Below are positions 6,925 through 21,086 of a stretch of DNA of 64,000 nucleotides, in pieces (position 1 is the stretch's first letter; each line of letters begins with the position of its first letter). Location of the stretch: the NCBI GenBank assembly GCA_004282745.1, contig SHMT01000018.1, forward strand, positions 1-64,000. The letters are read 5' to 3'. The DNA comes from Candidatus Scalindua sp. SCAELEC01. Its GTDB lineage: Bacteria > Planctomycetota > Brocadiia > Brocadiales > Scalinduaceae. A program made the position numbers and the translations under genes. The notes under the pieces are model-generated. The model worked only from the letters and a program-made list of their open reading frames with translations, had not been told where the DNA came from and made no database searches.

Positions 6925-8978
6925 AAAAAAGAACCTCTCAACAAGAACAAGAGTCCGAGCTCCGAAAAAGAGCTGAGACAAGGTTAAAGTCTCAGGTGCA
7001 GGTTTCGGAAGAGATGTCAAATAGCGACATGAAAAAACTGATTCATGAACTGAAGGTCCATCAGGTTGAGCTCCAGATGCAGAATGATGAACTACTCAAA
7101 ACCCAGATGAAACTTGAAGAGTCTCGAGAGAGATATGCCAATCTCTATGACTTTGCCCCTGTTGGATATTTTACCATGAATGAAAAAGGATTGATTCTGG
7201 AGGCCAATTTAACAGGCGCTTTGCTCCTTGGTACGGAACGAAGATATCTGATTAACAAGCCTATATCAAAGTTTATTACCAAGGAAGATCAGGATATCTA
7301 CTACATGTATCTCAGGGATATAGGTAAAAAGAGAGATAGGCAGACGTGCGAGTTACATATGTTGAAAAGAGATAAAACACATTTTTATGCACAATTTGAC
7401 AGTATCGTAGTGAAGGATAGCGTCGGGAATTTCAACAAACACCGGGTGATAATAAGTGATATTTCTAAACGCAAGTTGGCTGAAGATTTGCTTCGAGAGA
7501 GTGAAGAGAAGTATAGGGATCTGCTTGATAACGCAAACGATCTTTTTCAAAGTGTTAAACCTGATGGGGTATTCATATACGTTAATCGGAAATGGAAAGA
7601 GACCCTCGGATACAGCGATGAAGAGGTCGTTCATCTTACCCTGTTTGACATTCTGCATCCTGACAGCCCATCAAATTGCATAGAGGCGTTAAGGCGTGTA
7701 ATGAAGGGAGAAAAAGTTGATAGAATTGAAGTCATTTTTCTCACTAAGGGAGGCAGGATGATCAATGTTGAGGGAAGTATCAGCTGTATTTTTCAGGAAG
7801 GAAAACCCGTTGCCATCAGAGGTATCTTCAGGGACATTACTGAGCGCAAGCAGATGGCGGAGACGCTCTTGCAATCGGAGAAATTAAAGGCGCTTGGTGT
7901 GATATCCTCCGGTATTGCACATGAGTTTAATAATATCCTCGCAATAGTAAAAGGTTATTCGCAGTTGCTAGCGTGGGAATCCAGTGACAATCGAGAATTG
8001 ACTGATGGGCTTCGTTCCATTACTCAGGCAGCGGATGATGGAGCTAAGATCGTCCACAGGATCAGGGAATTTACCAAAGTAGTGAGTGATGACTTATGGT
8101 TTGAAAATGTAGATATAAATGAACTGATTGAACAAACAATCGATTTCTTAAGACCAAGATGGAAGGCTAAGGCTCAGTCTAAGGGTATAACATATCGTAT
8201 AAATACGAAAGACCTCAATAAGGTAACAGCCGTAAAGGGTATTCCAGTTGAGTTGAGAGAGGTACTCGTAAATATCATAAATAACGCATTAGATGCAATG
8301 CCTGCTGGGGGTACAATTTCCTTTCGGACAAGGAGAGATGGTGATATGGTATGGGTAAATATTTCCGATACTGGTACGGGTATGACCAGAGAGGTGCTGA
8401 AGATGATATTTGATCCATTTTTCACCACCAGGATGCCTGAAGGAACTGGATTAGGGATGAGTGTTGCTTATGGCACGATAAAAAGACATGGTGGTAAGAT
8501 TGAAGTGAAAAGTGAATTGGGAAAGGGTAGCACGATTACGTTGAGTCTACCTTCAACAAGGAAAACTATCCATTCATTGACACTTCCCCAACCCACACAG
8601 CAGATAAAAGCCAGGAACCTCCGCATCCTGGTGGTGGACGATGAGCAGTATATATGCAAAATTTTGAATACATTTTTATCCGACGAGGGACAAAACGTTA
8701 GGTGTGTTGACAATGGTAGCGAGGCTATAAAACTCCTAAAAAGTGAAAGCTTTGACCTCGTTCTCTGCGACCTGATCATGCCAGAAGTGTCTGGGTATGA
8801 TGTGATTAAGGCCTTGAAAACGTTGGACAAAAGGCCGAAAGTGTTCCTCATCACCGGTTGGAATGATAAGTTGGAGATTACAATCAGTGATGAGCTAAAT
8901 GTGGACTCTATTATTAAAAAACCATTTAATTTTTCAGAGTTATCAGGGTATATAAACAGTGAATTCCATTCTGGATAA
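6921..8978 (+). CDS. PAS hybrid histidine kinase with C-terminal receiver
   Basis: A 685-residue cytoplasmic kinase with no membrane segment. In order: a charged coiled coil (1-70), PAS (about 70-185), PAS (about 195-315), HisKA with phospho-acceptor His334 in AHEFNN, HATPase_c with DTGTGM and GTGLGMS, and a C-terminal receiver starting LRILVVDDEQ with phospho-Asp in LVLCDLIMP and the conserved Lys in IKKPF. The ATG overlaps the stop of the CheB-CheR-PAS gene. The first 80 codons are almost identical to those of the next kinase gene. The input signal is unknown. Confidence 0.9.
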   Translation: MKKRTSQQEQESELRKRAETRLKSQVQVSEEMSNSDMKKLIHELKVHQVELQMQNDELLKTQMKLEESRERYANLYDFAPVGYFTMNEKGLILEANLTGALLLGTERRYLINKPISKFITKEDQDIYYMYLRDIGKKRDRQTCELHMLKRDKTHFYAQFDSIVVKDSVGNFNKHRVIISDISKRKLAEDLLRESEEKYRDLLDNANDLFQSVKPDGVFIYVNRKWKETLGYSDEEVVHLTLFDILHPDSPSNCIEALRRVMKGEKVDRIEVIFLTKGGRMINVEGSISCIFQEGKPVAIRGIFRDITERKQMAETLLQSEKLKALGVISSGIAHEFNNILAIVKGYSQLLAWESSDNRELTDGLRSITQAADDGAKIVHRIREFTKVVSDDLWFENVDINELIEQTIDFLRPRWKAKAQSKGITYRINTKDLNKVTAVKGIPVELREVLVNIINNALDAMPAGGTISFRTRRDGDMVWVNISDTGTGMTREVLKMIFDPFFTTRMPEGTGLGMSVAYGTIKRHGGKIEVKSELGKGSTITLSLPSTRKTIHSLTLPQPTQQIKARNLRILVVDDEQYICKILNTFLSDEGQNVRCVDNGSEAIKLLKSESFDLVLCDLIMPEVSGYDVIKALKTLDKRPKVFLITGWNDKLEITISDELNVDSIIKKPFNFSELSGYINSEFHSG

Positions 8979-9050
8979 TTTCTCTCGTGGGGTGGGGCTC
9001 TTGAAGTATACCCATTGCAAAATGATTTTTGGAATTTCAGTGCATGAGCT

Positions 9051-9059
9051 TGGTATAAT
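9051..9059 (+). promoter_or_regulatory. Possible extended -10 promoter for the second kinase
   Basis: TGGTATAAT is a TGnTATAAT extended -10 element, about 95 bases ahead of the ATG at 9155. No strong -35 box is seen, as is usual for extended -10 promoters. It would let the second kinase and the activator be transcribed apart from the upstream pair. Confidence 0.4.
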
Positions 9060-9154
9060 TGCACACTCTTGCGTGGATTTCAATATTGGAATCCATCCCA
9101 CTTATTCAACGAGTTCAGGATGACATCGGGGGTGGAAGCAGGGAAATATAAAGA

Positions 9155-9395
9155 ATGAAAAAAAGAACCTCTCAACAGGAGCAAGAGTCCGAGCTCCGAA
9201 AAAGAGCTGAGACAAGGTTAAAGTCTCAGGTGCAGGTTTCGGAAGAGATGTCAAATAGCGACATAAAAAAACTGATTCATGAACTGGAGGTCCATCAGGT
9301 TGAGCTCCAGATGCAGAATGATAAACTGCGCGAAACCCAGATGAAACTTGAAGAGTCTCGATCGAGATATGCCAACCTCTATGACTTTGCACCGG
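9155..9395 (+). repeat. Direct duplication of kinase 5' end (other copy 6921-7161)
   Basis: About 240 bases from the start codon are near-identical between the two kinase genes, with only a scatter of substitutions. The similarity stops sharply inside the first PAS domain, at the codons following YANLYDFAPVGY. This indicates a recent duplication or gene conversion of the N-terminal coiled-coil module. Confidence 0.85.
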
Positions 9396-11302
9396 TCGGT
9401 TACCTTACCTTTGACAGAGATGGAGTGATACGAGAGGCCAACCTCACCATTGCTGATATGTTGAATATAAAAAGGAGCCTTCTCATCAATAACCGATTTC
9501 ACTATTATGTTGACCGAGAGGATCAAGATATATTTTATCTGCATAGGAAGAGGATCTTTGAGGAAAAAAAAGCAGAGACCTGCGAGCTAAAATTAAAGGG
9601 AAAAGATGATAGAGAGTGGTATGTTCGATTAGATAGCGTGCGAGTGCAGGATTCTCGAAATAACAGTACCTGTAGAACCGCTATAACGAACATCACCGAG
9701 CAGAAAAAGATGGAGAATCTATTAATAGAATCGGAAGAAAGGCATCGTAAACTTATCGAAACGGCACAAGACGCAATTGTATGTGATGTTAATCAGGTAA
9801 TTACCGATTGGAACATATCTGCAGAGAAGATCTTTGGGTATTCAAAGCGGGAAATCATAGGACAACCGATATCACTCCTTATTCCTGAGAAATATAGGGA
9901 AGAGCATAGCGAGGGAGTGAGGCGATATTTAAAGACAGGCGAAACTAAAATAATAGGGAAAACAGTAGAGGTCTCAGGAGTGACGAAAGAGGGTGTTGAA
10001 ATACCGTTAGAAATATCAATAACCCATCAAAAGCTGAGAAACGAAAAGCACCTATTTACGGCCATCATCCGAGATATCACCGAGCGTAAAGAGGCGATTA
10101 AGGCATTGGAACAGAGCGAGGAAAAATATAGAACCCTTGTAGAGACGATACCTGATATAGTATACAAGATCGATGAGAATGGGTATTTTACCTTTTTAAA
10201 CAACTCTATACGGAATTTTGGCTATGAGCCGGAAGAGCTTTTAGGGAAACATTTTAGTACTATATTACACCCCGATGACGTTAATAACTTCAGCAGGTCC
10301 GTAGTCTTAGAGAAGTATTCAGGCATCAAGACGAAAGAGATGGATACACCAAAACTCTTTGATGAACGAAGGTCGGAAAAAAGAATGACAAGAAACCTTG
10401 AGGTGCGGTTAGTAAAAAAGAATCAAGCAAGAGCAATGGGTGATGTCAGGGAAAGGAGGGGATTATTAACCTCCTTTGGTGAGATAATAGCGACCGGACA
10501 CTATTACGATAACGCGCAGAGTAGGAGGAGATTCGGCGGAACGGTGGGCATTATCATAGATGTTACAGAAAAGATAAAATTGCAGGCAGAAATGATACGA
10601 GCAGGTCAATTGGCATTGTTAGGAGAGCTGGCCGCAGGTATCGCTCACGAGATTAACAATCCCATATACTCCATAATAAATTTTGCCCAACTCATTGCGG
10701 ATGAAAGCGATAGGGATAACAGGGTACATGCGTTTGGTAAATTGATTATGGAAGAGGGTAACCGTATCGCAGATTTAACCGCAAACCTTGTCTCTTTATC
10801 GAGAAGTACAGATGGCCCAAAAATGTCTGTGCCTATACATGAACTCATCTCCAACTCCTTAAAACTGATCGGTATGCAGTTGAAAAAGGATCACATTACT
10901 ATTAAAGATACTATCTCAAAAGAGATCCCCCCCCTCATTGTCAATCCACAGGAGATTCATCAGGTATTTTTGAATCTTATCCAAAATGCGCGATACGCCT
11001 TAAACGAAAAATATCCCGGTAAAGACAAAGATAAGATACTTGAAATTTCATGTAACACAGTGTTCATTGACGATCACCAATATGTTCGAATCATATTCTA
11101 TGACCATGGAATTGGAATTGCGGAAGAGATACTGTTCAAAGTAAAAAGCCTCTTCTTTACGACGAAACCTCCTAACAAGGGAACCGGTATTGGCTTAAGT
11201 GTAAGTGAAAATATCATTCATAATCATGGCGGCAAAATCACCATAGAGAGTATATGGGGAGAATTTACAAAGGTTTTAATTGATCTGCCGGTAACAGAAT
11301 AG
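9155..11302 (+). CDS. Three-PAS histidine kinase
   Basis: A 715-residue cytoplasmic kinase. It shares its first 80 residues with the preceding kinase, then carries three PAS domains (about 80-190, 197-315, 322-475, the last with an inserted basic stretch). HisKA follows with His498 in AHEINNP, then HATPase_c with N box NLIQNARYAL, DHGIGI and GTGIGLS. It has no receiver of its own. The stop lies 7 bases from the ATG of the sigma-54 activator gene, so this is probably the cognate kinase of that regulator. Inferred role: sensing a cytosolic redox, ligand or stress cue through PAS domains. Confidence 0.9.
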   Translation: MKKRTSQQEQESELRKRAETRLKSQVQVSEEMSNSDIKKLIHELEVHQVELQMQNDKLRETQMKLEESRSRYANLYDFAPVGYLTFDRDGVIREANLTIADMLNIKRSLLINNRFHYYVDREDQDIFYLHRKRIFEEKKAETCELKLKGKDDREWYVRLDSVRVQDSRNNSTCRTAITNITEQKKMENLLIESEERHRKLIETAQDAIVCDVNQVITDWNISAEKIFGYSKREIIGQPISLLIPEKYREEHSEGVRRYLKTGETKIIGKTVEVSGVTKEGVEIPLEISITHQKLRNEKHLFTAIIRDITERKEAIKALEQSEEKYRTLVETIPDIVYKIDENGYFTFLNNSIRNFGYEPEELLGKHFSTILHPDDVNNFSRSVVLEKYSGIKTKEMDTPKLFDERRSEKRMTRNLEVRLVKKNQARAMGDVRERRGLLTSFGEIIATGHYYDNAQSRRRFGGTVGIIIDVTEKIKLQAEMIRAGQLALLGELAAGIAHEINNPIYSIINFAQLIADESDRDNRVHAFGKLIMEEGNRIADLTANLVSLSRSTDGPKMSVPIHELISNSLKLIGMQLKKDHITIKDTISKEIPPLIVNPQEIHQVFLNLIQNARYALNEKYPGKDKDKILEISCNTVFIDDHQYVRIIFYDHGIGIAEEILFKVKSLFFTTKPPNKGTGIGLSVSENIIHNHGGKITIESIWGEFTKVLIDLPVTE

Positions 11303-11309
11303 GACAAAT

Positions 11310-13001
11310 ATGAAAAGAGAAATCCTCATAGTTGATGATGAAAAAGCCATTCGATTCACCGTAAAGGAGTTTCTGTTAAAAGAGGGATATGAGGTATATA
11401 GCGCTGAGAATTTTAACGAAGCAGTAAAAATAATTACTACAGAACATCTGGACACTGTTTTATCGGATATTGTTTTAGAAGGCAAGACAGGCGTTGACAT
11501 CTTAAAAGAGGTGAAAGAGAGACGTCTGAATTGTCCTGTGATCCTGTTCACGGGATACCCTGATGTGGGGACTGCATCAGAAGCGGTACGTCATGGAGCC
11601 TACGACTATATAACAAAGCCCATTAAAAAAGAGGCACTGTTGCGTACCATTTCCAATGCGTTACAGTATAAAACCCTGGTAGAGGAGCGAAATCGGGTCC
11701 GTGCCAATCTTGAAGCTATTTTTAAGAGTGTCAAAGATGCCATCATAACAGTAGATAAGGATTTTAAAGTTATTGAGGTAAATGAAGCAGCGAAAGCAAT
11801 CTGTGGTTTTACCCGTGAAGAAGCCATAGGAAAAACTTTTGACTCTCTTCCAGAAATATGTTGTAGGCATTGTATTGATACCATAAAAAGAACGATAATC
11901 GAGAAACGACCCATTGAAATATATCGTATCGAGTGTAAGCATAAGATCCGCAATGGACAGGTTGTCTCCCTCAATACATTCCCTTTAATGGACAAGCAGA
12001 GTCGTCTTTCTGGCTGCGTCATGATCGTAAAAGATGAGACCCGTACCCATGAGTTAGAAAGAGAGTTAAAGGTGCGACAACGTTTTTTTAATATTGTAGG
12101 GAAAGATGATAAGATACAGACGCTCTACTCGTTAATAGAGCACTTAAAAGATATTGATACCACGGTTCTCATTACCGGAGAGACCGGTACGGGGAAAGAA
12201 CTTATCGTCGAAGCTCTGCATTACAGCGGTGTACGAAGTCAAGGACCATTAGTAAAGGTAAACTGTTCTGCTTTACCGGAAACCCTACTTGAAAGCGAGC
12301 TTTTCGGACATGTTAAGGGTGCATTTACGAGCGCCGTTACCGATAAGGTGGGCCGGTTCAAACAAGCCGACGGCGGTACGATATTTCTCGATGAAATTGG
12401 TGACGTATCTTTAAATGTGCAGCAGAGACTCCTTCGGGTACTTCAGGAGAAAGAGTTTGAGCGTGTGGGGGAATCTAAACCAACTAAGGTAGATGTGCGT
12501 ATCGTGGCGGCAACCAATCAAGACCTGAAAGAAAAAGTGAGGCTGAGAGAATTCCGAAACGACCTCTATTATCGGCTGAAAGTAGTGGTACTATCTCCAC
12601 CGCCACTCAGAGATAGACGAAAAGACATACCGCTTCTGGTTGAACACTTTATAAAAAAATTCAACCAGAAGTTAAAAAAACATATAGAAGATATCTCTCA
12701 AGAAGTCTATAAAATCTTTATGGAGTATGAGTGGCCCGGAAATGTCAGAGAGTTGGAGAATACACTGGAGCACTCCTTTGTCCTCTGTCATGAGCGCATC
12801 ATTACCATTGATGAGCTTCCCGTTGAACTGAGAGAGACAAAAACTACTTCTTCTGTGAATGCTAAGAGTAATGAGTCTGAGACAATCTTGCAGGCACTGG
12901 AAAGGAACCATTGGAATAAGTCCCTTGCAGCCAGTTTCCTGGGTGTATCCAGGAGAACCATCTACAATAAGATCAAAGAGTACAATTTACAACCAAAATA
13001 A
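11310..13001 (+). CDS. NtrC-family sigma-54 response regulator with Cys-rich PAS
   Basis: A 563-residue enhancer-binding activator. The receiver (1-120) has phospho-Asp53 and the Lys of TKP. A PAS domain (about 130-245) contains a CCRHC cluster and two further Cys, which could bind a metal or sense redox. The AAA+ domain has Walker A GETGTGKE (about 289-296), Walker [12 protein letters not shown] and a sigma-54-contact loop reading GAFTSA instead of the usual GAFTGA. A Fis-type helix-turn-helix (about 525-560, [18 protein letters not shown]) ends the protein. It follows its likely kinase by 7 bases. Candidate targets are the two -24/-12 promoters at 13199 and 17559; the palindromes just behind this gene are plausible binding sites. 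Confidence 0.93.
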
Positions 13002-13020
13002 CTCCCCCCGTAGTGAGCAT

Positions 13021-13098
13021 TTCACACTTTGTGCAAATTGCACACTTTGTGCATTTCACACTTTGTGCAAATTGCACACTTTGAGCACGTTTCACACT
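13021..13098 (+). promoter_or_regulatory. Tandem palindromic enhancer-like sites (UAS)
   Basis: A 34-bp unit occurs twice in tandem (13021-13054, 13055-13088), with the start of a third copy after it. Each unit holds the 15-base palindrome TGTGCAAATTGCACA (13030-13044 and 13064-13078). Repeated dyads 110-190 bases ahead of a -24/-12 promoter are the usual arrangement of sites for an NtrC-type activator, and the gene for such an activator ends 20 bases upstream. Confidence 0.6.
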
Positions 13099-13198
13099 AT
13101 CCTCAAATAGAAAAAAGCACCATTGATTTTCCAAATCTTTCGCCCTATACCTCCATTTAAGAGCAAAGAGCACTACTAGTGATTCGATTATTACTCTT

Positions 13199-13214
13199 TG
13201 GCACATGTTTTGTT
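13199..13214 (+). promoter_or_regulatory. Sigma-54 (-24/-12) promoter of the receiver gene
   Basis: TGGCACATGTTTTGTT matches the -24 element fully (TGGCAC); the -12 element reads TTGTT instead of TTGCW. The 11-base step from the second G of GG to the G of the -12 dinucleotide is correct. The predicted start is near 13225, giving a leader of about 60 bases before GTG 13287. Confidence 0.55.
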
Positions 13215-13286
13215 AATTACATACACAGGGAACAAAAGCGTGGGGTATTTGATAGGTGATATTTAAAGGAGAGGAGGGCTGTTATT

Positions 13287-13661
13287 GTGGCTGTTGTTCT
13301 GGCTGTAGAGAGCAATAAAAACCAGCGCTTGCTTTATGAACACGAGTTGAGCGCCGAGGGCTATGAGGTTATAACTGCGGCTAGTGGCAAAGAGGCTTTG
13401 AATAAAGTTCGAGGACTGCATCCAGATATAATTGTTATGGATATAAGCAAGCCAAAGACGGACGTTCTTGAAGCAATTGGCGTTATTATAGGGAGAAGTA
13501 AGCATACGCCGATTATTATTCATACTGCTTATAGCCGACATAAGGAGAGCTTTATGTCATGGGCTGCCGATGCTTACCTTTTTAAATCCTCGGATCTAAC
13601 CAAATTAAAGAAGATAATAAGTGATTTGCTTAAAGAGAAATCCGTGACTGCCTCTGCGTAA
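13287..13661 (+). CDS. Stand-alone receiver-domain protein
   Basis: A 124-residue single receiver domain. The phospho-acceptor is in IIVMDISKP, the conserved Thr in HTAYS and the Lys in LFKSS. The acidic pocket near the N-terminus reads VESN where VDD or VED is normal, so one Mg2+-binding acidic residue is replaced by Ser and phosphorylation may be weak. The GTG start follows GGAGAGGAGGG. It lies behind a predicted sigma-54 promoter with two palindromes. A truncated paralogue lies at 14423-14566 and keeps the acidic residues. Likely output is by protein-protein contact; the partner is unknown. Confidence 0.85.
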   Translation: MAVVLAVESNKNQRLLYEHELSAEGYEVITAASGKEALNKVRGLHPDIIVMDISKPKTDVLEAIGVIIGRSKHTPIIIHTAYSRHKESFMSWAADAYLFKSSDLTKLKKIISDLLKEKSVTASA

Positions 13662-13732
13662 ATTCAGAACAGACAATAGTAGTCAGAAAAGGCATTTGAG
13701 GGAACCGTTGCTTATAGAGGTGCGTCTTATAG

Positions 13733-13999
13733 ATGAGAAATAGTTATAACCACCCAAACACTGATAAGAATAAGAGAGAAACAAAAGACCAACCTTACCA
13801 TTTAGGAGTACCGATGACGAGAGAACAAAAAAAAAGGGTCTGCTTAACCTGTGGGAAGAGATTTCTCAGCAAATTTCCTCACAACCGTATCTGTGCACAC
13901 TGTAACATGATCAACAATACAATAATAGCAGAAGAGCACTCTGTTACTATCAGATCTGAAGATTTAGCCGAAAACCATTATGAGATGAGTAGAGAATAA
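13733..13999 (+). CDS. Small zinc-ribbon protein
   Basis: An 88-residue basic protein with CLTCGKRF and ICAHC (two CxxC pairs 17 apart), a single zinc ribbon. It resembles short zinc-finger domains of regulators but I recognise no named family. The N-terminus M-x-NSY is shared with the next gene, supporting this start over an internal ATG at 13814 that has its own AGGAG. The last 11 residues (LAENHYEMSRE) and the DNA under them (13961-13995) match the end of the family-1 mobile element, so the C-terminus was recruited from an insertion. Confidence 0.6.
   Translation: MRNSYNHPNTDKNKRETKDQPYHLGVPMTREQKKRVCLTCGKRFLSKFPHNRICAHCNMINNTIIAEEHSVTIRSEDLAENHYEMSRE
13961..13995 (+). repeat. Family-1 element relic inside a coding sequence
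   Basis: This segment matches the right end of the family-1 element (for example 29877-29907) at nearly every position, including CCGAAAACCATTATGAGATGAGTA. The rest of the element is absent. It now encodes the last residues of the zinc-ribbon protein. Confidence 0.7.
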
Positions 14000-14025
14000 C
14001 TCTGTTTTTTATGAGGAAGTGATAC

Positions 14026-14232
14026 ATGGAAAATAGTTATAGCGACTCAAAAGCGAATAGCGAAATCAAAAGAAAGAAGTACGGAACTGATACTTTTTCA
14101 GAAACGATGAATAGTTGGGAAAAGCAGAGACCGTGCTTAAAATGCGGGAGGGAATTTGCTAGTCAGGGTCCTTATCATCGAATATGTGAGAGATGTAAAT
14201 TGATTAATGTGAGATACCACAACATCTCATGA
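14026..14232 (+). CDS. Small zinc-ribbon protein, paralogue of preceding gene
   Basis: A 68-residue protein with CLKCGREF and ICERC, the same two CxxC pairs as its neighbour and a related N-terminus, so the pair arose by tandem duplication. GAGGAAG lies 6 bases ahead of ATG 14026. The tail after the zinc ribbon differs from that of the neighbour, consistent with the neighbour's tail coming from a mobile element. Possible role: DNA or protein contact in the surrounding regulatory block; function not known. Confidence 0.6.
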   Translation: MENSYSDSKANSEIKRKKYGTDTFSETMNSWEKQRPCLKCGREFASQGPYHRICERCKLINVRYHNIS

Positions 14233-14278
14233 TTCTCACGTAACCTTGTTATAATACCAACATCTTTAGAATAATTTA

Positions 14279-14566
14279 ATGAAAGGAGTAAAAACAGCTT
14301 TGTCCTCTGTCATTCGCGCAACCATAACCTTTGAAGACCTTCCCGTTGAATTGAGCGAGAGGAAAACAGGACGAGGTAAACCGTGTTCAGGCGTAATATC
14401 AGAAGGAGGGAACTCGGTCGCCATGAAGAGTGTTCTTGTTGTAGAGGACGACAAAAACCGGCATTTGCGATACGGGCTTGAATCAGAATTCGAAGGTTAT
14501 CGGGTGACTACAGTTGCTGATGGCTTCGCTGTTGAATCTTCAGATTTAACCGAATTAAAGATATAA
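14279..14566 (+). pseudogene. Chimeric remnant: sigma-54 regulator segment joined to a receiver fragment
   Basis: The first part (14296-14365) is a diverged copy of 12774-12843 in the sigma-54 activator gene (shared stretch TTTGTCCTCTGTCAT; residues FEDLPVELSER against [11 protein letters not shown]). From ATG 14423 it copies the receiver gene at 13287: a receiver start (SVLVVEDDKNRHLRYGLE) is joined directly to a receiver end (ESSDLTELKI), with about 200 bases of the middle missing. The frame is open for 95 codons but no complete domain remains. It marks an earlier duplicate of the activator-receiver region. Confidence 0.7.
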
Positions 14567-14599
14567 ATGTATAAAGGAGGGAGGGCCGTCTATGTGAGC

Positions 14600-14700
14600 T
14601 CATGTAAACATCATACGTAGGGACTCACCGTAAATCCGGCGAGCCCTGGGCCAGCTTCGGAGTCTTTGCGTAAGGCTAGACATCTGTTGTGCGTGCTTAG
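14600..14700 (+). other. Possible structured RNA leader of unknown class
   Basis: Between the remnant and the CBM48-like gene, TACG..GGACTC (about 14618-14629) can pair with GAGTC..GCGTA (about 14660-14673), enclosing a G+C-rich inner hairpin around GCCCTGGGC. The segment is richer in G+C than its surroundings. It could be a cis-regulatory leader or the relic of another element; it matches no riboswitch I can name. Confidence 0.25.
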
Positions 14701-14748
14701 AATTTTAGTGTGTTTTTAATGAAAATTTTTTTAAGAGGGAGTTTTGTA

Positions 14749-15177
14749 ATGGTAAAAACTTTTGTAAGGGGCGGTGCAAATTTGAAAACAGAAACAATTG
14801 AGATAGATAACGTCAGCAAAAATTGTGCAGGAACGGAATCTCAACCGGTGAAAGATAGTACGAAAAATGGCGGGATAAAAAAAGAGTATCTTAATGAGGA
14901 AAATGTATGCAGGGTTACGTTTGCGCTTCCCAAAGAAGCTACCAACGGGTCGGATAAGGTATCTATCGTAGGTGATTTTAATAATTGGGACACCCATGCA
15001 AACCCTATGGAAAAGGGTAAAGATGGCGGCTTTGTCGCCGTATGTGATCTAGAGCCGGGGAGGGAATTCCAGTTTCGCTACCTAATCGATGATTCGATAT
15101 GGGAAAATGACTGGTGCGCTGACAAATATGTTAAGAGTTGTTATGGTGACAGCGATAATTCAGTAGTGACCACCTAA
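14749..15177 (+). CDS. Stand-alone AMPK-type glycogen-binding (CBM48-like) protein
   Basis: A 142-residue protein. The C-terminal 90 residues form an early-set/isoamylase-N-like domain: VCRVTFALP, SIVGDFNNWD, then FQFRYLIDDS and ENDWCADKY. The GDFNNW and ENDW blocks are the family signature of AMPK-beta and 1,4-alpha-glucan-branching-enzyme N-domains, which bind glycogen or act as protein interaction modules. The N-terminal 50 residues are low in structure. Start 14749 is chosen because AGAGGGAG lies 8 bases upstream; an ATG at 14710 has no such site. A paralogue is at 32726. No glycan-active domain is attached, so the role is open. Confidence 0.75.
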   Translation: MVKTFVRGGANLKTETIEIDNVSKNCAGTESQPVKDSTKNGGIKKEYLNEENVCRVTFALPKEATNGSDKVSIVGDFNNWDTHANPMEKGKDGGFVAVCDLEPGREFQFRYLIDDSIWENDWCADKYVKSCYGDSDNSVVTT

Positions 15178-15879
15178 GTGTATAAGGAACTCGATATTAA
15201 ATATCTTTGAATTAAGGCTTCCCGACCGAGCGTACCAGTTCCAGCATGACGAGAGCTCTTGCGGGTATACGGGAGGGCAGTACTCTCTTTTAACGCAGAG
15301 GACGCAGAGAGCGATAAAGGCTGATGAAAAATAAGCAGAGCCATTTTTCTTATATATGCATGCGAGATATCAAAGAAGTTAATTGGCACTGCAAGAGAAA
15401 GTTAATAAAAATTTTCATGTTTAAGAGCTGTGCAATCGAAGTGTTCGGGTAGGCAACAAATTACAGCCCGTTGCCTATCAAGCGCAATTTGACATAAGCT
15501 CTACGCCTCTGCGTTATACTCATCTCATAATGGTTTTCGGATAAAATCCGAGATAAAATTGAGCGAGTAAAGTCCTCGGCATCCGGGGATAACTGCAACC
15601 AAGATTTGGTTTCCAGTAAAACCGAAAACCAAATCGGTTTTAGTATAAAGTAAATTTCCCGTATATTCATGTTCGTTACACCTCGGATATCACCCCCGTT
15701 TGAACGGCCTGATGGGCGGGGACATACGGTCACGACGTTATGATACGTGTAACGTAACTTCTTGCACGAAAGAATGGTCAAGCGGGCGAGCGGAGCAGAG
15801 GAACAGAGAGAATTGCAATTTTAGGTTTTATCTTCATTGGCATCTTGATGTTTACATTTTACGTATGAAAGGAAGAGAA
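15178..15879. other. Long intergenic region with repeats
   Basis: About 700 bases without a supported gene. It holds an AACGCAGAGGACGCAGAG snippet at 15294-15311 (related copies at 19608 and, inverted, near 29990), a full family-1 element at 15515-15647, and a G+C-rich stretch before the Hsp20 gene. TTGGCATCTTGATGTTTA near 15838 resembles a -24/-12 promoter but is off by one in spacing. Confidence 0.5.
15515..15647 (-). mobile_element. Family-1 MITE-like element, full copy
   Basis: A 133-bp element from TATACTCATCTC to GGTTTTAGTATA, in the reverse of the orientation used at 29748. Each end has a subterminal hairpin: TCGGAT/ATCCGA at one end and CCAAATCGG-type pairing at the other. No coding capacity. 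Almost identical to the copies at 23221 and 24274. Confidence 0.8.
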
Positions 15880-16395
15880 ATGGCTTTGAAAGACCTCATA
15901 ACCTTCAACCGAAGAAAACCAGTACGAGTACAAGATGATTCACGTTATCCCATAGCGAGCCTACAGAGAGAAATGGGTCGTTTGTTTGATGATTTTCTGA
16001 GAGATTTTGACGGGTTTAGCAACTTCCCTTTTAGAGGAGAGAGCTTTGCTGAATTTTCGCCAAAGGTAGATGTGAATGAGACGGACAAAACAGTTGAAAT
16101 AACCGCAGAAGTACCGGGAATGGATGAAAAGGATGTTACGGTAACATTGAAAGACGATATCCTCACAATCGAGGGTGAAAAGAAGCAGGAGAAGGAGGAA
16201 AAAGAGAAGGATTACTACCATCTGGAGCGAAGCTATGGTTCATTTCAACGGTCGCTCCGCATCCCTTGTGAAATAGAGAGCGACAAGGTGGACGCCTCAT
16301 TTAAAAAAGGGGTTTTAAGGATTACTTTACCAAAGAGTCCTAAGGCACAGGAAAATGTGCGGAAGATTGAGGTGAAAAGTGAAATCGATGGATAA
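15880..16395 (+). CDS. Small heat-shock protein (Hsp20/alpha-crystallin)
   Basis: A 171-residue ATP-independent holdase. A variable N-terminal arm (1-65) is followed by the alpha-crystallin domain (about 66-160) with PKVDVNETD, AEVPGMDEKDV and the family signature KKGVLRITLPKS. The tail is short and charged. The start at 15880 has GGAAGA 3 bases upstream; the frame stays open upstream, but that part lies over repeat-derived and G+C-rich DNA and is unlikely to be translated. The stop overlaps the start of a short helical gene. It stands apart from the Hsp20 pair at 17605 and has no equally clear sigma-54 promoter. Confidence 0.9.
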   Translation: MALKDLITFNRRKPVRVQDDSRYPIASLQREMGRLFDDFLRDFDGFSNFPFRGESFAEFSPKVDVNETDKTVEITAEVPGMDEKDVTVTLKDDILTIEGEKKQEKEEKEKDYYHLERSYGSFQRSLRIPCEIESDKVDASFKKGVLRITLPKSPKAQENVRKIEVKSEIDG

Positions 16396-16603
16396 TGCTC
16401 TAGAGTATAAGGTATCAAGTTTAGCACATGCAATTAATGAGAACGTTCGAAACAGGGAATTTGGATACGTCCATGAAACGATTAATGAATCAATAGAACA
16501 GTGGAAGAAAAAGGCTCACTATGACATGCTTTGTCATGAGGCACAAATTATGGTAGAGCTCATGTCGTGTGACAGAGTATTTTCAGGTTGTTTAAACAGT
16601 TGA
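16379..16603 (+). CDS. Small hypothetical protein overlapping hsp20
   Basis: A 74-residue, mostly helical protein of no family I recognise. Its start overlaps the end of the Hsp20 gene. GTG 16379 and ATG 16388 are both possible; a GAGGTG lies 4 and 13 bases upstream of them, and neither spacing is ideal. The sequence has several His and Cys residues near the end (HYDMLCHEAQ, SCDRVFSGC). Location between an Hsp20 and a receiver gene suggests an accessory stress gene, but that is inference. Confidence 0.45.
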   Translation: MKSMDNALEYKVSSLAHAINENVRNREFGYVHETINESIEQWKKKAHYDMLCHEAQIMVELMSCDRVFSGCLNS

Positions 16604-16631
16604 TACTCTCAAATTTTGTTACTGAAAGAGA

Positions 16632-17066
16632 GTGAAATTGAAGAAAAAAATAGTGCTCATTGATGACAAGGAAGAGATATTAATTGGATTGAAAATACTC
16701 ATCTCACGAGAAGGCTTTGAAGTCTCCACAGCTTCCGGTTATGATGAAGCGATTAAACAGATGGCAAGGACAGATTTTGATCTTGTGCTTACCGACTTTG
16801 AGCTAGAGGATAATACAGGAATAGATATCTTAAGAGAAGTTAAAAGAAGAGGACCAGACTGCCCTGTCATTTTATTCTCCGGAAGTCTCAATTACGCAGT
16901 TGAGTTCGAGGCAAAACGGATGGGTGCTTATGCGTATCTAACCAAGCCGGTAAAACTGGAAACCCTTTTATATACTATCCGCACGGCATTACATCATAAG
17001 AGAGTATTACAAGAAGTAGGTACTACAGAATGTCAATCATCAAGAACAACAAGGTGGAAATGCTAA
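16632..17066 (+). CDS. Stand-alone receiver-domain protein, relative of the sigma-54 regulator receiver
   Basis: A 144-residue protein: one receiver domain (1-122) with acidic pair IDDK, phospho-Asp in LVLTDFELED, Ser in place of the switch Thr (LFSGS) and Lys in TKPV, then a short polar tail. It aligns along its length with the receiver of the activator at 11310 (EGFEVSTAS / [21 protein letters not shown] / [12 protein letters not shown]), so it is probably a duplicated receiver without output domains. The GTG start follows GAAAGAGA. It may compete for, or buffer, phosphoryl groups from the local kinases; this is inference. Confidence 0.85.
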   Translation: MKLKKKIVLIDDKEEILIGLKILISREGFEVSTASGYDEAIKQMARTDFDLVLTDFELEDNTGIDILREVKRRGPDCPVILFSGSLNYAVEFEAKRMGAYAYLTKPVKLETLLYTIRTALHHKRVLQEVGTTECQSSRTTRWKC

Positions 17067-17099
17067 AGTCTGTTGCTTACAAATTTGATATTTAGGGTG

Positions 17100-17129
17100 C
17101 AGGAAAGAATAACTTGTTGTTCTTTCCTG
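17100..17129. repeat. CAGGAAAGAA hairpin, recurring motif
   Basis: Arms CAGGAAAGAA (17100-17109) and TTCTTTCCTG (17120-17129) are perfect complements around TAACTTGTTG. The same AGGAAAGAATAACTTGTTGTTCT string occurs at 37632, and the arm occurs in the 211-265 repeat. It may end transcription of the receiver gene, though no T-run follows. Confidence 0.5.
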
Positions 17130-17404
17130 GGCCCTTGGGTATATACTCCTCGCTAGCTCACGAGCAGCACCCCGCCCTTTTTTTATCCAAATATGTAAAC
17201 ATTTTTTGAACTGATTTATCTCTGTTTTTCTGACTCTTTTTCAACATCGTCCGGTTAGGTTTTTGTAGGCGTGCCTTTAGTCATATCCCGAGCCCTTTTA
17301 TCAGGTATCCGGAGATTCGCTCTTTCTCGAGTACCGCTAAAACCATGCGGGAATGACAGTTTTATGGCAATAAATAAACCGTGTCAAAACCTAACAGAGA
17401 CAAC

Positions 17405-17494
17405 GGGTATATAGGTACCCATTTTTATCGTTGCCAAGACGTGTTTGCCACTTTTGAGAATACAATGAAACATAATATGGGTACACATATACCC
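17405..17494 (+). promoter_or_regulatory. Paired GGGTA-N6-TACCC operator/enhancer sites
   Basis: Two inverted repeats of identical design lie at 17405-17420 and 17479-17494. The second extends to 10-base arms (AATATGGGTA / TACCCATATT). Their centres are 74 bases apart, about seven helical turns, so a dimeric regulator would bind both on one DNA face. They sit about 173 and 99 bases before the predicted sigma-54 start, typical for enhancer-binding activator sites. Confidence 0.65.
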
Positions 17495-17558
17495 ATATTT
17501 CTGATTTGCCTATTTGCCGAATACACATAAGTATCATTATTTTAGCTACTTAGGTATT

Positions 17559-17575
17559 TTGGCATATTCATTGCT
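17559..17575 (+). promoter_or_regulatory. Sigma-54 (-24/-12) promoter of the Hsp20 operon
   Basis: TTGGCATATTCATTGCT matches the -24/-12 consensus (TGGCAC-N5-TTGCW) at all but one position, with exact spacing. The predicted start is near 17586, leaving a short leader with AAAGGAGG before ATG 17605. This is one of the strongest promoter calls in the window. Confidence 0.75.
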
Positions 17576-17604
17576 TTAAATAGATTTTAGAAAGGAGGTT
17601 TAAA

Positions 17605-18024
17605 ATGTTGATACCAAGAGAATTTGAAGCTTTGTTAGGGTTGCAGGATGCGATGGACCGTACGCTTGATACCGGCTTCTTCGATAGCGCAACAAGCGGA
17701 CGGGGTGTTCATCCACCGGTTAACATCTTTGAAAAGGATGGAGAGATAGTTCTTGTTGCAGAATTGCCCGGGGTGAAAAAGAAGGATCTGAGCATTGAAG
17801 TAAAGGAGGACACCGTACGACTTTCAGGAGAACGTGCTATTGCGTACGATAAAAACGTTAATTACCACCGTGTGGAACGTAACTCCTCTAAATTTGACAG
17901 GACACTGAAACTGCCGATAAACGTTCAAACTGATAAGGTAAAAGCGGAGTATAAAGACGGCCTTCTTGTTCTTTTCCTGCCACGTGCCGAAAAAAATAAG
18001 CCAAAACAGATTACAATCCAATAA
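17605..18024 (+). CDS. Small heat-shock protein (Hsp20)
   Basis: A 139-residue holdase chaperone. The alpha-crystallin domain (about 38-130) starts with PPVNIFEKDGEIVLVAELPGVKK and ends with YKDGLLVLFLPRAE; the C-terminal tail is short. AGAAAGGAGG lies just ahead of the ATG. It is the first gene of a two-gene Hsp20 operon, 20 bases before the next. The -24/-12 promoter and two upstream palindromes indicate activation by an NtrC-type regulator rather than HrcA or sigma-32. Confidence 0.93.
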   Translation: MLIPREFEALLGLQDAMDRTLDTGFFDSATSGRGVHPPVNIFEKDGEIVLVAELPGVKKKDLSIEVKEDTVRLSGERAIAYDKNVNYHRVERNSSKFDRTLKLPINVQTDKVKAEYKDGLLVLFLPRAEKNKPKQITIQ

Positions 18025-18044
18025 TTACCTGAAAGGAGGATATC

Positions 18045-18455
18045 ATGAGCGACGAAAGGAAAGAAATTGCAAAAGCGGAAAATAAGAAACCTGAAAAAAC
18101 AGAATGTGCCGGAGAGAGGACTATACCGGGGAAATATTATATCCCTAGGACTGACATTGCAGAAACAGAAAAAAACCTTGTGGTAACTATGGATGTACCT
18201 GGTGTCCGAAAGGAAAACCTAAATATCACCCTTGAAAACCGTAACCTGGAAGTTGATGCCAAAATAGACTTTTCACCCTATGAAAAGCTCGATCCGGTAT
18301 ATACCGAGTACAACGTTGGGCACTATACGAGGAGTTTCACTGTATCAAACACTATTGATACGAAGAACATCGATGCAAATCTCACTGATGGGGTGCTGAC
18401 ATTGACTCTACCAAAGGCTCCGGAAGCACTACCGAGAAAGATTGAGATTAACTAA
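18045..18455 (+). CDS. Small heat-shock protein (Hsp20), second of the operon
   Basis: A 136-residue holdase. A Lys/Glu-rich N-terminal 30 residues precede the alpha-crystallin domain ([23 protein letters not shown] to [15 protein letters not shown]). GAAAGGAGG precedes the ATG. It is diverged from its upstream neighbour, so the two probably form mixed oligomers or cover different clients, as in other paired Hsp20 operons. The operon is followed by a protease fragment and a strong hairpin. Confidence 0.92.
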
Positions 18456-18466
18456 CTCAGATCTAC

Positions 18467-18576
18467 AGAGGGCTCCCTGGACCAGGTAGCAATGATTATG
18501 AAGATTTCATCCAGACCGATGCTGCGATCAATCCGGGCAATTCCGGTTCACTCACACATCATTCATTGGCCGCTTG
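18467..18576 (+). pseudogene. HtrA/DegP-type serine protease fragment
   Basis: In one frame this reads [20 protein letters not shown] and continues INPGNSGS before running into unrelated sequence and a stop. [18 protein letters not shown] is the hallmark of HtrA-family proteases around the catalytic Ser of GNSGG; here the last Gly is Ser and everything before and after is missing. A periplasmic quality-control protease gene probably once followed the Hsp20 pair. Confidence 0.8.
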
Positions 18577-18596
18577 AATCCCGGCGGCCAATGAAT
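18561..18596 (+). terminator. Strong hairpin after the Hsp20 operon
   Basis: Thirteen-base perfect arms, ATTCATTGGCCGC (18561-18573) and GCGGCCAATGAAT (18584-18596), flank a 10-base loop. A weak T-containing stretch follows (TTAACTCTTTAT), so it may act as a terminator or RNA-stabilising end. Confidence 0.55.
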
Positions 18597-18785
18597 TTAA
18601 CTCTTTATCGGTTGTAGTATATACGGCTAATCATTTTTTAAAAGGAACGATATATCTATTTAGATTGTTGTAACATCAGGAAAAGAAGGGGAACCAGGTT
18701 CACGCAAGGGCAGATACTTTTATCCCCCCCCCCCTATTCAGTCTTAGTTTTTTAACAATATAACTTTGGCAGGAGGTTTAAAGAG

Positions 18786-19505
18786 ATGAGAAAATTTTAT
18801 CTGATAGCAATTGCATTCATGGCTTTGATCCTGTTTACCCCCCATTTAAAGGCGCAGGAAGAGGAAAAACTATCGGCAGATGAGCAGGCAAGGGTGATGC
18901 AAGAGAAGCTAAACAAGGCCATGGAGAGTTTAAAACGAGAGATAAAGATCGATGTTGAGGTCGAGAACGGAGGGACTATTACGGGAAATGTAACATGCAA
19001 AAGAGTCAAGTATCCGGAAGACGTTGTTGTCGCTATTGAAAAAGTTGGGGACAATACCTATCCTGCTCCGGAGGAACATGGAATAATTGACCAATACAAC
19101 CTTACCTTTGTTCCCCACGTATTAGCGGTACAAAAGGGAACGAAGATCGATTTCCCAAATAGTGACAGCGTACGACACAATGTCTTCTCACCACCCGATT
19201 GCTGTCAGCAGTTTAATCTTGGCACGTACGATGTTGGTATTGTAAAGATGGTTGAATTTAACGAAGCGTGTGAAGTACCTCTCTTATGTAACGTCCATGC
19301 GGAGATGTCTGCATTTGTAGTCGTACTCGATAATCCCTATTTTTCCGTTACGGGGAGAGACGGGGTCTTTACGATTGAAAATGTTCCACCCGGAACCTAC
19401 AAACTCAACGCCTGGCATGAAAAGCTTAAGACGGTATCGAAAGAGGTTACCGTAGAAGCAGGCAAGACAACTAAGGTTGACTTTCAATTAAAGAAACGGA
19501 AGTAA
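18786..19505 (+). CDS. Secreted cupredoxin-like protein with carboxypeptidase-regulatory-like tail
   Basis: A 239-residue exported protein. The signal peptide is MRKFYLIAIAFMALILFTPHLKA. After a helical stretch, a cupredoxin fold spans about 60-185, with the four type-1 copper ligands recognisable: His in VRHNVFS, and Cys, His and Met in LLCNVHAEMSAF. A beta-sandwich domain (about 185-239, GVFTIENVPPGTYKLNAWHE) of the carboxypeptidase-regulatory type follows. This architecture is common in 'methylamine utilisation' or plastocyanin-like periplasmic proteins. AGGAGG lies ahead of the ATG. Neighbouring copper receptor genes suggest a role in periplasmic copper handling or electron transfer. Confidence 0.85.
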   Translation: MRKFYLIAIAFMALILFTPHLKAQEEEKLSADEQARVMQEKLNKAMESLKREIKIDVEVENGGTITGNVTCKRVKYPEDVVVAIEKVGDNTYPAPEEHGIIDQYNLTFVPHVLAVQKGTKIDFPNSDSVRHNVFSPPDCCQQFNLGTYDVGIVKMVEFNEACEVPLLCNVHAEMSAFVVVLDNPYFSVTGRDGVFTIENVPPGTYKLNAWHEKLKTVSKEVTVEAGKTTKVDFQLKKRK

Positions 19506-20008
19506 GGCTCTAAGACAAGCTTGGAAATAAAGCCGCTTTCACCGAGTATAGCATGCATCAATAATAATTCGATTAGGGCTTTCCATTAAGCCCTTAATAT
19601 GTTCTTTTAACGCAGATGCCGTGAAGGACGCAGAGTAAAAGTAGGGATTCCCTATTTGTCCGCCCTGGAATTCTATTAATAGAGTTTGTTTTTCTCTGCG
19701 ACCTCTGCGCCTGTGTTATTGTACTTTCATACAAGCCTTCTTTACCTGGCCACGAGGGGTATTGATGATATGGATTTCTGACTGTCATATGTGCCCAAAG
19801 TATTTCTGCATTTACTTTTTCATAAATGCCTCTTTTCCCAGGGCTTTTTAATCCTGGCAGCATTTATTTCTTTACAACGTATCTTTTATTTAGTAGTTTT
19901 ACATCAATACACTATTTACACACGTTTGGCGTTATCATATGGTACTCCTTGATACTGCCCGACTTTTTACACGGTTCTTCAACTATTAAGTCATAGAAAA
20001 TATTACCC
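19506..20008. other. Intergenic region with repeat and gene fragment
   Basis: About 500 bases. An AACGCAG/GGACGCAGAGTAAAAGTAGGGAT repeat at about 19606-19655 recurs inverted near 29970-30018. A fragment of a P460-like cytochrome gene lies on the minus strand at about 19724-19815. No intact gene is seen. Confidence 0.55.
19724..19815 (-). pseudogene. Fragment of P460-like cytochrome gene
   Basis: The minus strand encodes NAEILWAHMTVRNPYHQYPS and then WPGKEGLYES, matching MNAQRLWEHMTGENPYQLYP and WPGKEGFYKS of the intact cytochrome gene at 24446-24958. The DNA is clearly homologous too. Signal peptide, most of the fold and the haem-binding CxxCH are missing, so this is a duplicated remnant. 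Confidence 0.75.
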
Positions 20009-20458
20009 TTGCTAAAATCGGTAAAAATAATTCAATCTTCACCTTTTGTCACTATTGTCATTTCAGTGTGCTTACTCGCAAACCTCTTTGCGCCGAGTTT
20101 GAGCACTGTTATTATGGATAAGAGTGTTGCTTTACATCCTGAATCTCACACCTGTAAATGTAACCCTGAACCGCATAGTATAAGCAGTTGTTGCTGTGCA
20201 ATAGAGATCAATGCCTCTGAAGGGAAAAGTTTACTTAAGGAGGATCATCAAGGCATTTTCTCTACATTCATTAAGAGTCTGGGATGTTCAAGCCATCCTG
20301 ACCAGCTTTCTTCATTTTCATATAATGTTACCATTCCCAAGGATGGTATCACTCCCCCAGACCTGTCCATGCTTCATTTTATAGACAAACAGCAGAAAGC
20401 CTTTCCGGCATCCATAACTGTATCCCCGCCGGACAAACCACCACGCTATTTTGCATAG
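20009..20458 (+). CDS. Secreted Cys/His-rich protein next to copper receptor
   Basis: A 149-residue protein with an N-terminal hydrophobic segment (IIQSSPFVTIVISVCLLANLF) that acts as signal or anchor. A cluster HTCKCNPEPHSISSCCCAIE (about 47-66) is rich in Cys and His and is a plausible copper or other soft-metal site. I recognise no named family; similar short Cys-rich proteins accompany TonB-dependent copper receptors. The start is TTG and no good ribosome site is visible, so the true N-terminus is uncertain. Confidence 0.5.
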   Translation: MLKSVKIIQSSPFVTIVISVCLLANLFAPSLSTVIMDKSVALHPESHTCKCNPEPHSISSCCCAIEINASEGKSLLKEDHQGIFSTFIKSLGCSSHPDQLSSFSYNVTIPKDGITPPDLSMLHFIDKQQKAFPASITVSPPDKPPRYFA

Positions 20459-21086
20459 CGTCCATCCAATACTATCGTGAAACAATACATTCGCCGAATA
20501 ATTGAGATAAGGCGTGTAGACGGCAGTTTCATGTCATTATTCCAATATCATCAATTGAAAACGCCCTCTGGATGTTTTCTATTATGGAAACTGTGTGAAA
20601 AGAATACCTTCATACCTTGCGGCTGACTAATGACAAAGACTCCCAGGTTTTTTATACCTTATCAGTGGACGTCTTGTTTCCACCAACTTACCTTCAGAAC
20701 CTCTTTTGCTTTAAGGCAAATGTGGCTGCCCTGTTGCATTTATTTTGCACTGTGGCTCCTGTAGATAAGGAGCTGTCACAACTCCTAATCATGGTCTATC
20801 ACCTCAATGTGAACACACGGGAATAGAAACGGGAATGGACAGTAGTGGGTAAACTGGCCGTACCCCGTTGTTGGACACGATATCATCGGATTTGACGGAC
20901 ATACCGAAAATCATACAGAGTTTATTAAACTTACGAGAATGTTTAGGTGGCAGTATATACGTTTTCAGAATTGCATACGGTAGTACATTCAGAGATTTCT
21001 TTCAAGCGATAACCCGTACAAGCATGCAAATTGTAGTATTGTTCACGCTCATTCCTGTTTCCTAACAAAAATGAGAGGAAAAAACT
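20459..21086. other. Long region upstream of the copper receptor, no gene seen
   Basis: About 630 bases. Two short frames are present but have no motif, ribosome site or sensible composition. It should contain the receptor promoter; no clear sigma-70 or sigma-54 pair was found. A GAGAGGAAAAA sequence just before 21087 is the ribosome site. Confidence 0.5.

Follow-up and report, generated by a model that had tools for sequence, protein, structure and literature searches.

The window, meaning the whole stretch of DNA that was analysed, is 64 kb long and is contig C44 of a 4.59-Mb assembly (G000). It contains three genes for small heat-shock proteins, all with the PF00011 domain of the Hsp20/alpha-crystallin family. 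Two of these form a conserved pair, and the DNA in front of the pair carries a predicted sigma-54 promoter preceded by two dyads. A two-component gene cluster lies upstream. The features are given below in window coordinates, except for the last, which is on contig C96 of the same assembly.

11310-13001, plus strand: NtrC-type activator with receiver, PAS, AAA+ and HTH8 domains (Pfam and ortholog comparison); not likely the Hsp20 activator
13020-13087, plus strand: tandem TTTCACACTTTGTGCA repeats directly after the NtrC-type gene, present in 7 ortholog loci and different from the Hsp20 dyads
13199-13214, plus strand: -24/-12-like box TGGCACATGTTTTGTT, upstream of a stand-alone receiver gene (13287-13661) and paired with the repeat array
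15880-16395, plus strand: Hsp20 gene 0, 171 aa (PF00011, 1.5e-25)
16632-17066, plus strand: RR2, a stand-alone receiver of the neighbouring two-component cluster (PF00072)
17405-17420, no strand: distal dyad, a candidate enhancer, GGGTATATAGGTACCC, starting 155 bp upstream of the -24 TGG; best motif match (19.0)
17453-17470, no strand: site A, a degenerate half-site, TTTGAGAATACAATGAAA (consensus elsewhere TTTGGGAATNNNAATCCA), matching 10 of 15 consensus positions and weak alone
17474-17499, no strand: proximal dyad, a candidate enhancer, AATATGGGTACACATATACCCATATT, a 26-bp inverted repeat with core GGGTACACATATACCC at 17479-17494
17560-17575, plus strand: predicted -24/-12 sigma-54 promoter TGGCATATTCATTGCT, with a start expected near 17586
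17591-17599, plus strand: ribosome-binding site AAAGGAGGT (sequence inspection)
17605-18024, plus strand: Hsp20 gene 1, 139 aa (PF00011, 1.5e-21)
18045-18455, plus strand: Hsp20 gene 2, 136 aa, second of the conserved pair (PF00011, 8.6e-20)
L065:4333-5877, minus strand: C96 PAS activator, divergent from the sister Hsp20 operon

The box in front of the pair has the form of a sigma-54 promoter. The sequence TTGGCATATTCATTGCT at 17559-17575 includes TGGCAC/T-N5-TTGC (17560-17575) with correctly spaced, invariant GG and GC, and the ATG of Hsp20 gene 1 follows at 17605. Both dyad cores are perfect copies of GGGTA-N6-TACCC, 74 bp apart (17405 and 17479). An earlier note had reported the box and the two dyads, and their sequences lie exactly where it placed them; it also gave the right distances to a start near 17586, 99 and 173 bp. 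Site A lies 26 bp upstream of the proximal dyad, the offset seen in most other loci. The leader is only about 20 nt, which makes it too short for a ROSE-type thermometer.

A perfect single dyad is not rare. Five occur in the 4.59-Mb genome and six in a reversed control, and of the five, the two window dyads stand 74 bp from each other upstream of a strong -24/-12 match. The pattern TTGGCAY-N5-TTGCW has three matches genome-wide (one in the control), one of them being the Hsp20 promoter of the window. The earlier note had proposed a genome scan for dyads near -24/-12 boxes, and in ours, which like all our genome-wide motif scans is pattern matching only, a relaxed composite of a dyad, 50-80 bp and a -24/-12 box gave two matches and none in the control. 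Both are Hsp20 promoters, that of the window and that of a sister operon on C96. Three other perfect dyads were rejected as targets: the C10 dyad lacks a neighbouring sigma-54 box, and at those on C60 and C88 the relaxed composite search gave no promoter. The third strong -24/-12 match (C8:4108) is without a dyad. The combination of dyads and -24/-12 box is beyond chance, unlike dyads alone.

Comparison with other genomes bears out the arrangement. The subfamily of Hsp20 gene 1 is confined to 11 of the 59 Brocadiales genomes searched, with relatives at 63-76% identity and often in several copies. Eleven homologous promoters from these anammox bacteria, all outside the window, have the -24/-12 box conserved and a dyad, GGGNA-N6-TNCCC, whose start is 89-91 bp before the -24 TGG, a few cores deviating by one base. 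Most of these loci have a second half-site about 26 bp further upstream, and most have an additional dyad further up, mostly near -230 and close to a divergent gene. The window has a degenerate site A, and its proximal core begins 81 bp before the -24 TGG, giving a spacing of -81/-155 where the native loci have -90/-230; both differences speak against the reading proposed below. The predicted window promoter is thus a version of the native design with shifted spacing and a decayed half-site.

Twenty sites from the other loci, the window excluded, were used to construct a motif (consensus AAATGGGAA-N6-TTCCCATTT). The two window dyads rank first and second in the 64 kb, the distal at 19.0 and the proximal at 18.4; the next match scores 10.9. 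Among 20 simulated 64-kb sequences the best single score was 18.6 and the highest second match 13.9. One such match can therefore arise by chance, and no simulated sequence had two near that level. Over the 59 genomes the composite pattern has ten matches, nine of which are upstream of these Hsp20 operons; the tenth (G048), the sole one outside Hsp20, is inside an open reading frame and was discarded. Cross-genome conservation of the predicted elements strongly supports what the earlier note had put forward, namely sigma-54 control with paired palindromic enhancers.

Which activator might read these sites? At the native loci the Hsp20 operon and a divergent gene share the promoter; that gene encodes a stand-alone PAS-AAA+-HTH8 sigma-54 activator that has no receiver domain. 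Hsp20 gene 0 has its orthologs among the later genes of native operons, as on C96, and in the window it stands apart, upstream of the pair. Of the 11 genomes that have this Hsp20 subfamily, 10 also have the N-terminal part of the activator, always beside Hsp20 genes, and it was found in none of the 48 others (Fisher 1.8e-10, shared ancestry ignored). The eleventh genome, G013, has its Hsp20 gene only as a contig-end fragment. The dyad-promoter composite occurs in 8 of 10 genomes with the activator and in 1 of 49 without it (p = 1.8e-7, a nominal value because of shared ancestry). A search of 392 Planctomycetota genomes gave no match to the activator outside Brocadiales. The earlier note had named the nearby NtrC-type activator "or a second one", and it is the second option that this tracking of the dyads by a PAS-only activator favours.

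In G000 the C96 gene is the only complete activator gene of the PAS-AAA+-HTH8 type found, and none lies beside the window operon. With a single copy and no adjoining gene, the C96 activator most likely acts on the window operon in trans. It matches PF00158 at 9.4e-72 and HTH_8 at 1.6e-4 (21.8 bits, cut-off 22). Its AAA+ domain with a Walker A motif and GAFTGA-type loop, together with HTH8, is the make-up of a bacterial enhancer-binding protein; the two motifs read GETGTGKE and GSFTGA in all nine orthologs. The recognition helix GLNRRTILNKMKKF is identical in the nine full activator copies compared, across two families, and the PAS domain has an invariant cysteine. The genome also has rpoN, as sigma-54 control demands, in two copies (PF04552; G000:C28:47526-47999 and G000:C29:7785-8258), while nearly all relatives have one.

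We consider it likely, from sequence comparison, that the Hsp20 pair (17605-18455) is under the sigma-54 promoter at 17560-17575, with the dyads as putative enhancers for the one-component PAS activator encoded on C96. This reading draws on the predicted promoter, on dyad conservation, on the way activator and Hsp20 genes are linked and occur together, and on the single complete activator gene, all of them evident in the genomes compared. The pair would be transcribed from the sigma-54 promoter, and the two dyads, with the decayed third half-site, would serve as upstream activating sequences for the PAS-AAA+-HTH8 activator. Dimers of the activator may bind the palindromes through the recognition helix (step 1). 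A signal at the PAS domain, possibly the stress proposed in the earlier note, would license the ATPase of the AAA+ hexamer (step 2). DNA looping over 80-155 bp would bring the activator to the promoter (step 3), and ATP hydrolysis would open the sigma-54 complex, giving tight on/off induction of the chaperones (step 4). No conserved IHF site that could assist looping was found between dyad and promoter, a point against this reading. The window operon would be a second target of the C96 activator, reached in trans. In the native loci the distal dyad lies beside the activator gene, and by analogy with PspF this suggests autoregulation.

The same arrangement of two operons and one activator exists in G026. 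Its hydrazine synthase alpha is 100% identical to PDB 5c2v, which comes from K. stuttgartiensis, and for this reason G026 is assigned to Kuenenia stuttgartiensis. Like G000, it has two Hsp20 operons and one intact activator. At operon b the activator is reduced to an N-terminal remnant (L142 2535-2945), and the promoter and dyad are kept. This operon contains Hsp20_1, Hsp20_2, YfdX, Hsp20_0 and a Do-like protease split in two frames (L071 5597-6923); YfdX is absent from the other G026 Hsp20 loci examined. RNA-seq of Kuenenia MBR1 found an Hsp20-YfdX-Do/DegQ operon higher under ammonium limitation (PMC7438415), and there is a strong inference that operon b of G026 is that operon. Its response suggests that the signal may be nitrogen chemistry, not heat. 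In KsCSTR, Hsp20 gene 48320 was reported down after hydrazine (PMC12053348).

The nearby NtrC-type regulator was the first candidate named in the earlier note. In this alternative, the histidine kinase and NtrC-type activator (9155-13001) would bind the dyads and activate the Hsp20 pair, either by themselves or jointly with the C96 activator, or read-through from their own promoter at 13199 would reach the pair. Position speaks for it. The regulator and the window Hsp20 pair belong to one gene cluster. Hsp20_1/2 immediately follow the orthologous kinase, activator and receiver genes in G006, with RR2 directly upstream of the pair there (L068) as in the window, and in G012 the ortholog is about 7 kb away. 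In the tree, the window pair and the G006 cluster copy form a group (81/85 support), and the recognition helices of both activators share RRTI-x-NK. Against this, the regulator appears to have targets of its own. Its orthologs occur in several Brocadiales families, with TTTCACACTTTGTGCA-type repeats just after the gene in all eight examined (window included) and, in most of these loci, a -24/-12-like box about 150 bp or more beyond the repeats. The array at 13020-13087 is likely the binding array of the NtrC-type regulator, and 13020-13214 is probably its own target promoter, as judged from this conservation. No dyads follow the gene in any of the eight loci, and the Hsp20 promoter has no TTTCACACTTTGTGCA repeat. 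Nor does the family track the dyad-promoter sites, which are present in 7 of 38 genomes with it and 2 of 21 without it (p = 0.47). In G001, of the same genus, the cluster is found at about 78% identity and Hsp20 genes are missing from it. The proposal that this regulator is the Hsp20 activator is thus unsupported, and we regard its participation as unlikely. Some functional tie of the window-type two-component cluster to Hsp20 is possible, given its place near Hsp20_1 genes in G006 and G012.

The G001 cluster (L137, G001:C25) has the order kinase, activator, receiver, CBM48, receiver. Its lack of Hsp20 genes indicates that these were gained or lost within the cluster.

It is very improbable that the dyads act as operators for a repressor, or as weak terminators for the receiver gene upstream, with Hsp20 under sigma-70-type or CIRCE/thermometer control. 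In favour of this, each dyad could form a short hairpin with T-rich DNA after it. But the native loci have a divergent gene on the other side of the intergenic region and so need no terminator there, and the dyads keep a fixed distance from the -24/-12 box. Sigma-70-like matches number 4, where 3.9 are expected by chance. The CIRCE inverted repeat, even with up to 3 mismatches allowed, has no match in the window, and 8000-21000 has no Rfam match, ROSE-type thermometers included.

The proposed control by the C96 activator has a known parallel in the PspF-pspA phage-shock divergon of enterobacteria. There the activator gene is divergent, its sites are in the shared intergenic region, PspF is without an N-terminal sensory domain, and it acts on Psp protein genes. 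The native loci have the same layout (the only aspect compared), with a one-component AAA+ activator divergent from a stress operon, sites between them and a sigma-54 promoter. This holds for loci such as C96 and not for the window, which has no adjacent activator gene. Unlike PspF, the candidate Hsp20 activator has a PAS domain, presumed Hsp20 targets and a proposed second operon in trans, and only its AAA+ part aligns with PspF structures. With two-component activators of the NtrC/ZraR type, such as that at 11310-13001, it has the AAA+ and HTH8 domains in common. It differs in that the likely Hsp20 activator lacks a receiver domain and the receiver-bearing neighbour has other conserved repeats.

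In E. coli, ibpAB is read by sigma-32, and we know of no dedicated activator gene beside that locus. A passage of PMC4370416 cites ibpB as sigma-54-transcribed, which makes it likewise a small heat-shock gene read by sigma-54. For the phylum of the window, the text of PMC12316311 predicts sigma-54 enrichment of COG0071 in Planctomycetota, with sigma-54 control predicted for COG0071 and other chaperones in Planctomycetota and Bacteroidota. Phylum, gene class and -24/-12 prediction are the same as here; the passages concerned name the classes Planctomycetia and Phycisphaerae and give no activator or enhancer for these genes, and neither "Brocadi-" nor "anammox" was found in the main text. The earlier description of sigma-54 control of small heat-shock genes as uncommon needs softening in view of these accounts. 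Sigma-54 reading of a small heat-shock gene is already known, and what is new is the proposed lineage-specific PAS-activator circuit. Our literature search found no paper on sigma-54 enhancers in anammox bacteria; the literature searched, outside which most subscription journals fell, gave no description of Hsp20 operons with palindromic enhancers and a PAS activator dedicated to them.

A wider proposal can be made only tentatively, and we hold it to be rather doubtful. One PAS-type sigma-54 activator would sense a nitrogen-metabolism or redox signal instead of heat, with the invariant PAS cysteine as a candidate, and would turn on two Hsp20 operons at separate places in the genome, in Kuenenia along with YfdX and a Do/DegQ protease, as an anammox-specific regulon. 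For chaperone control in anammox bacteria there are now a candidate activator, its putative operator (AAATGGGAA-N6-TTCCCATTT) and a putative two-operon regulon to name. These bacteria are not readily manipulated genetically, and a vague promoter guess has become a binding test feasible in vitro or in E. coli.

Downstream of the Hsp20 pair, a run of 11 C at 18724-18734 lies about 50 bp upstream of the start of a gene for a CarboxypepD_reg-type protein (18786-19505). It could allow slippage-based variation in the expression of this gene.
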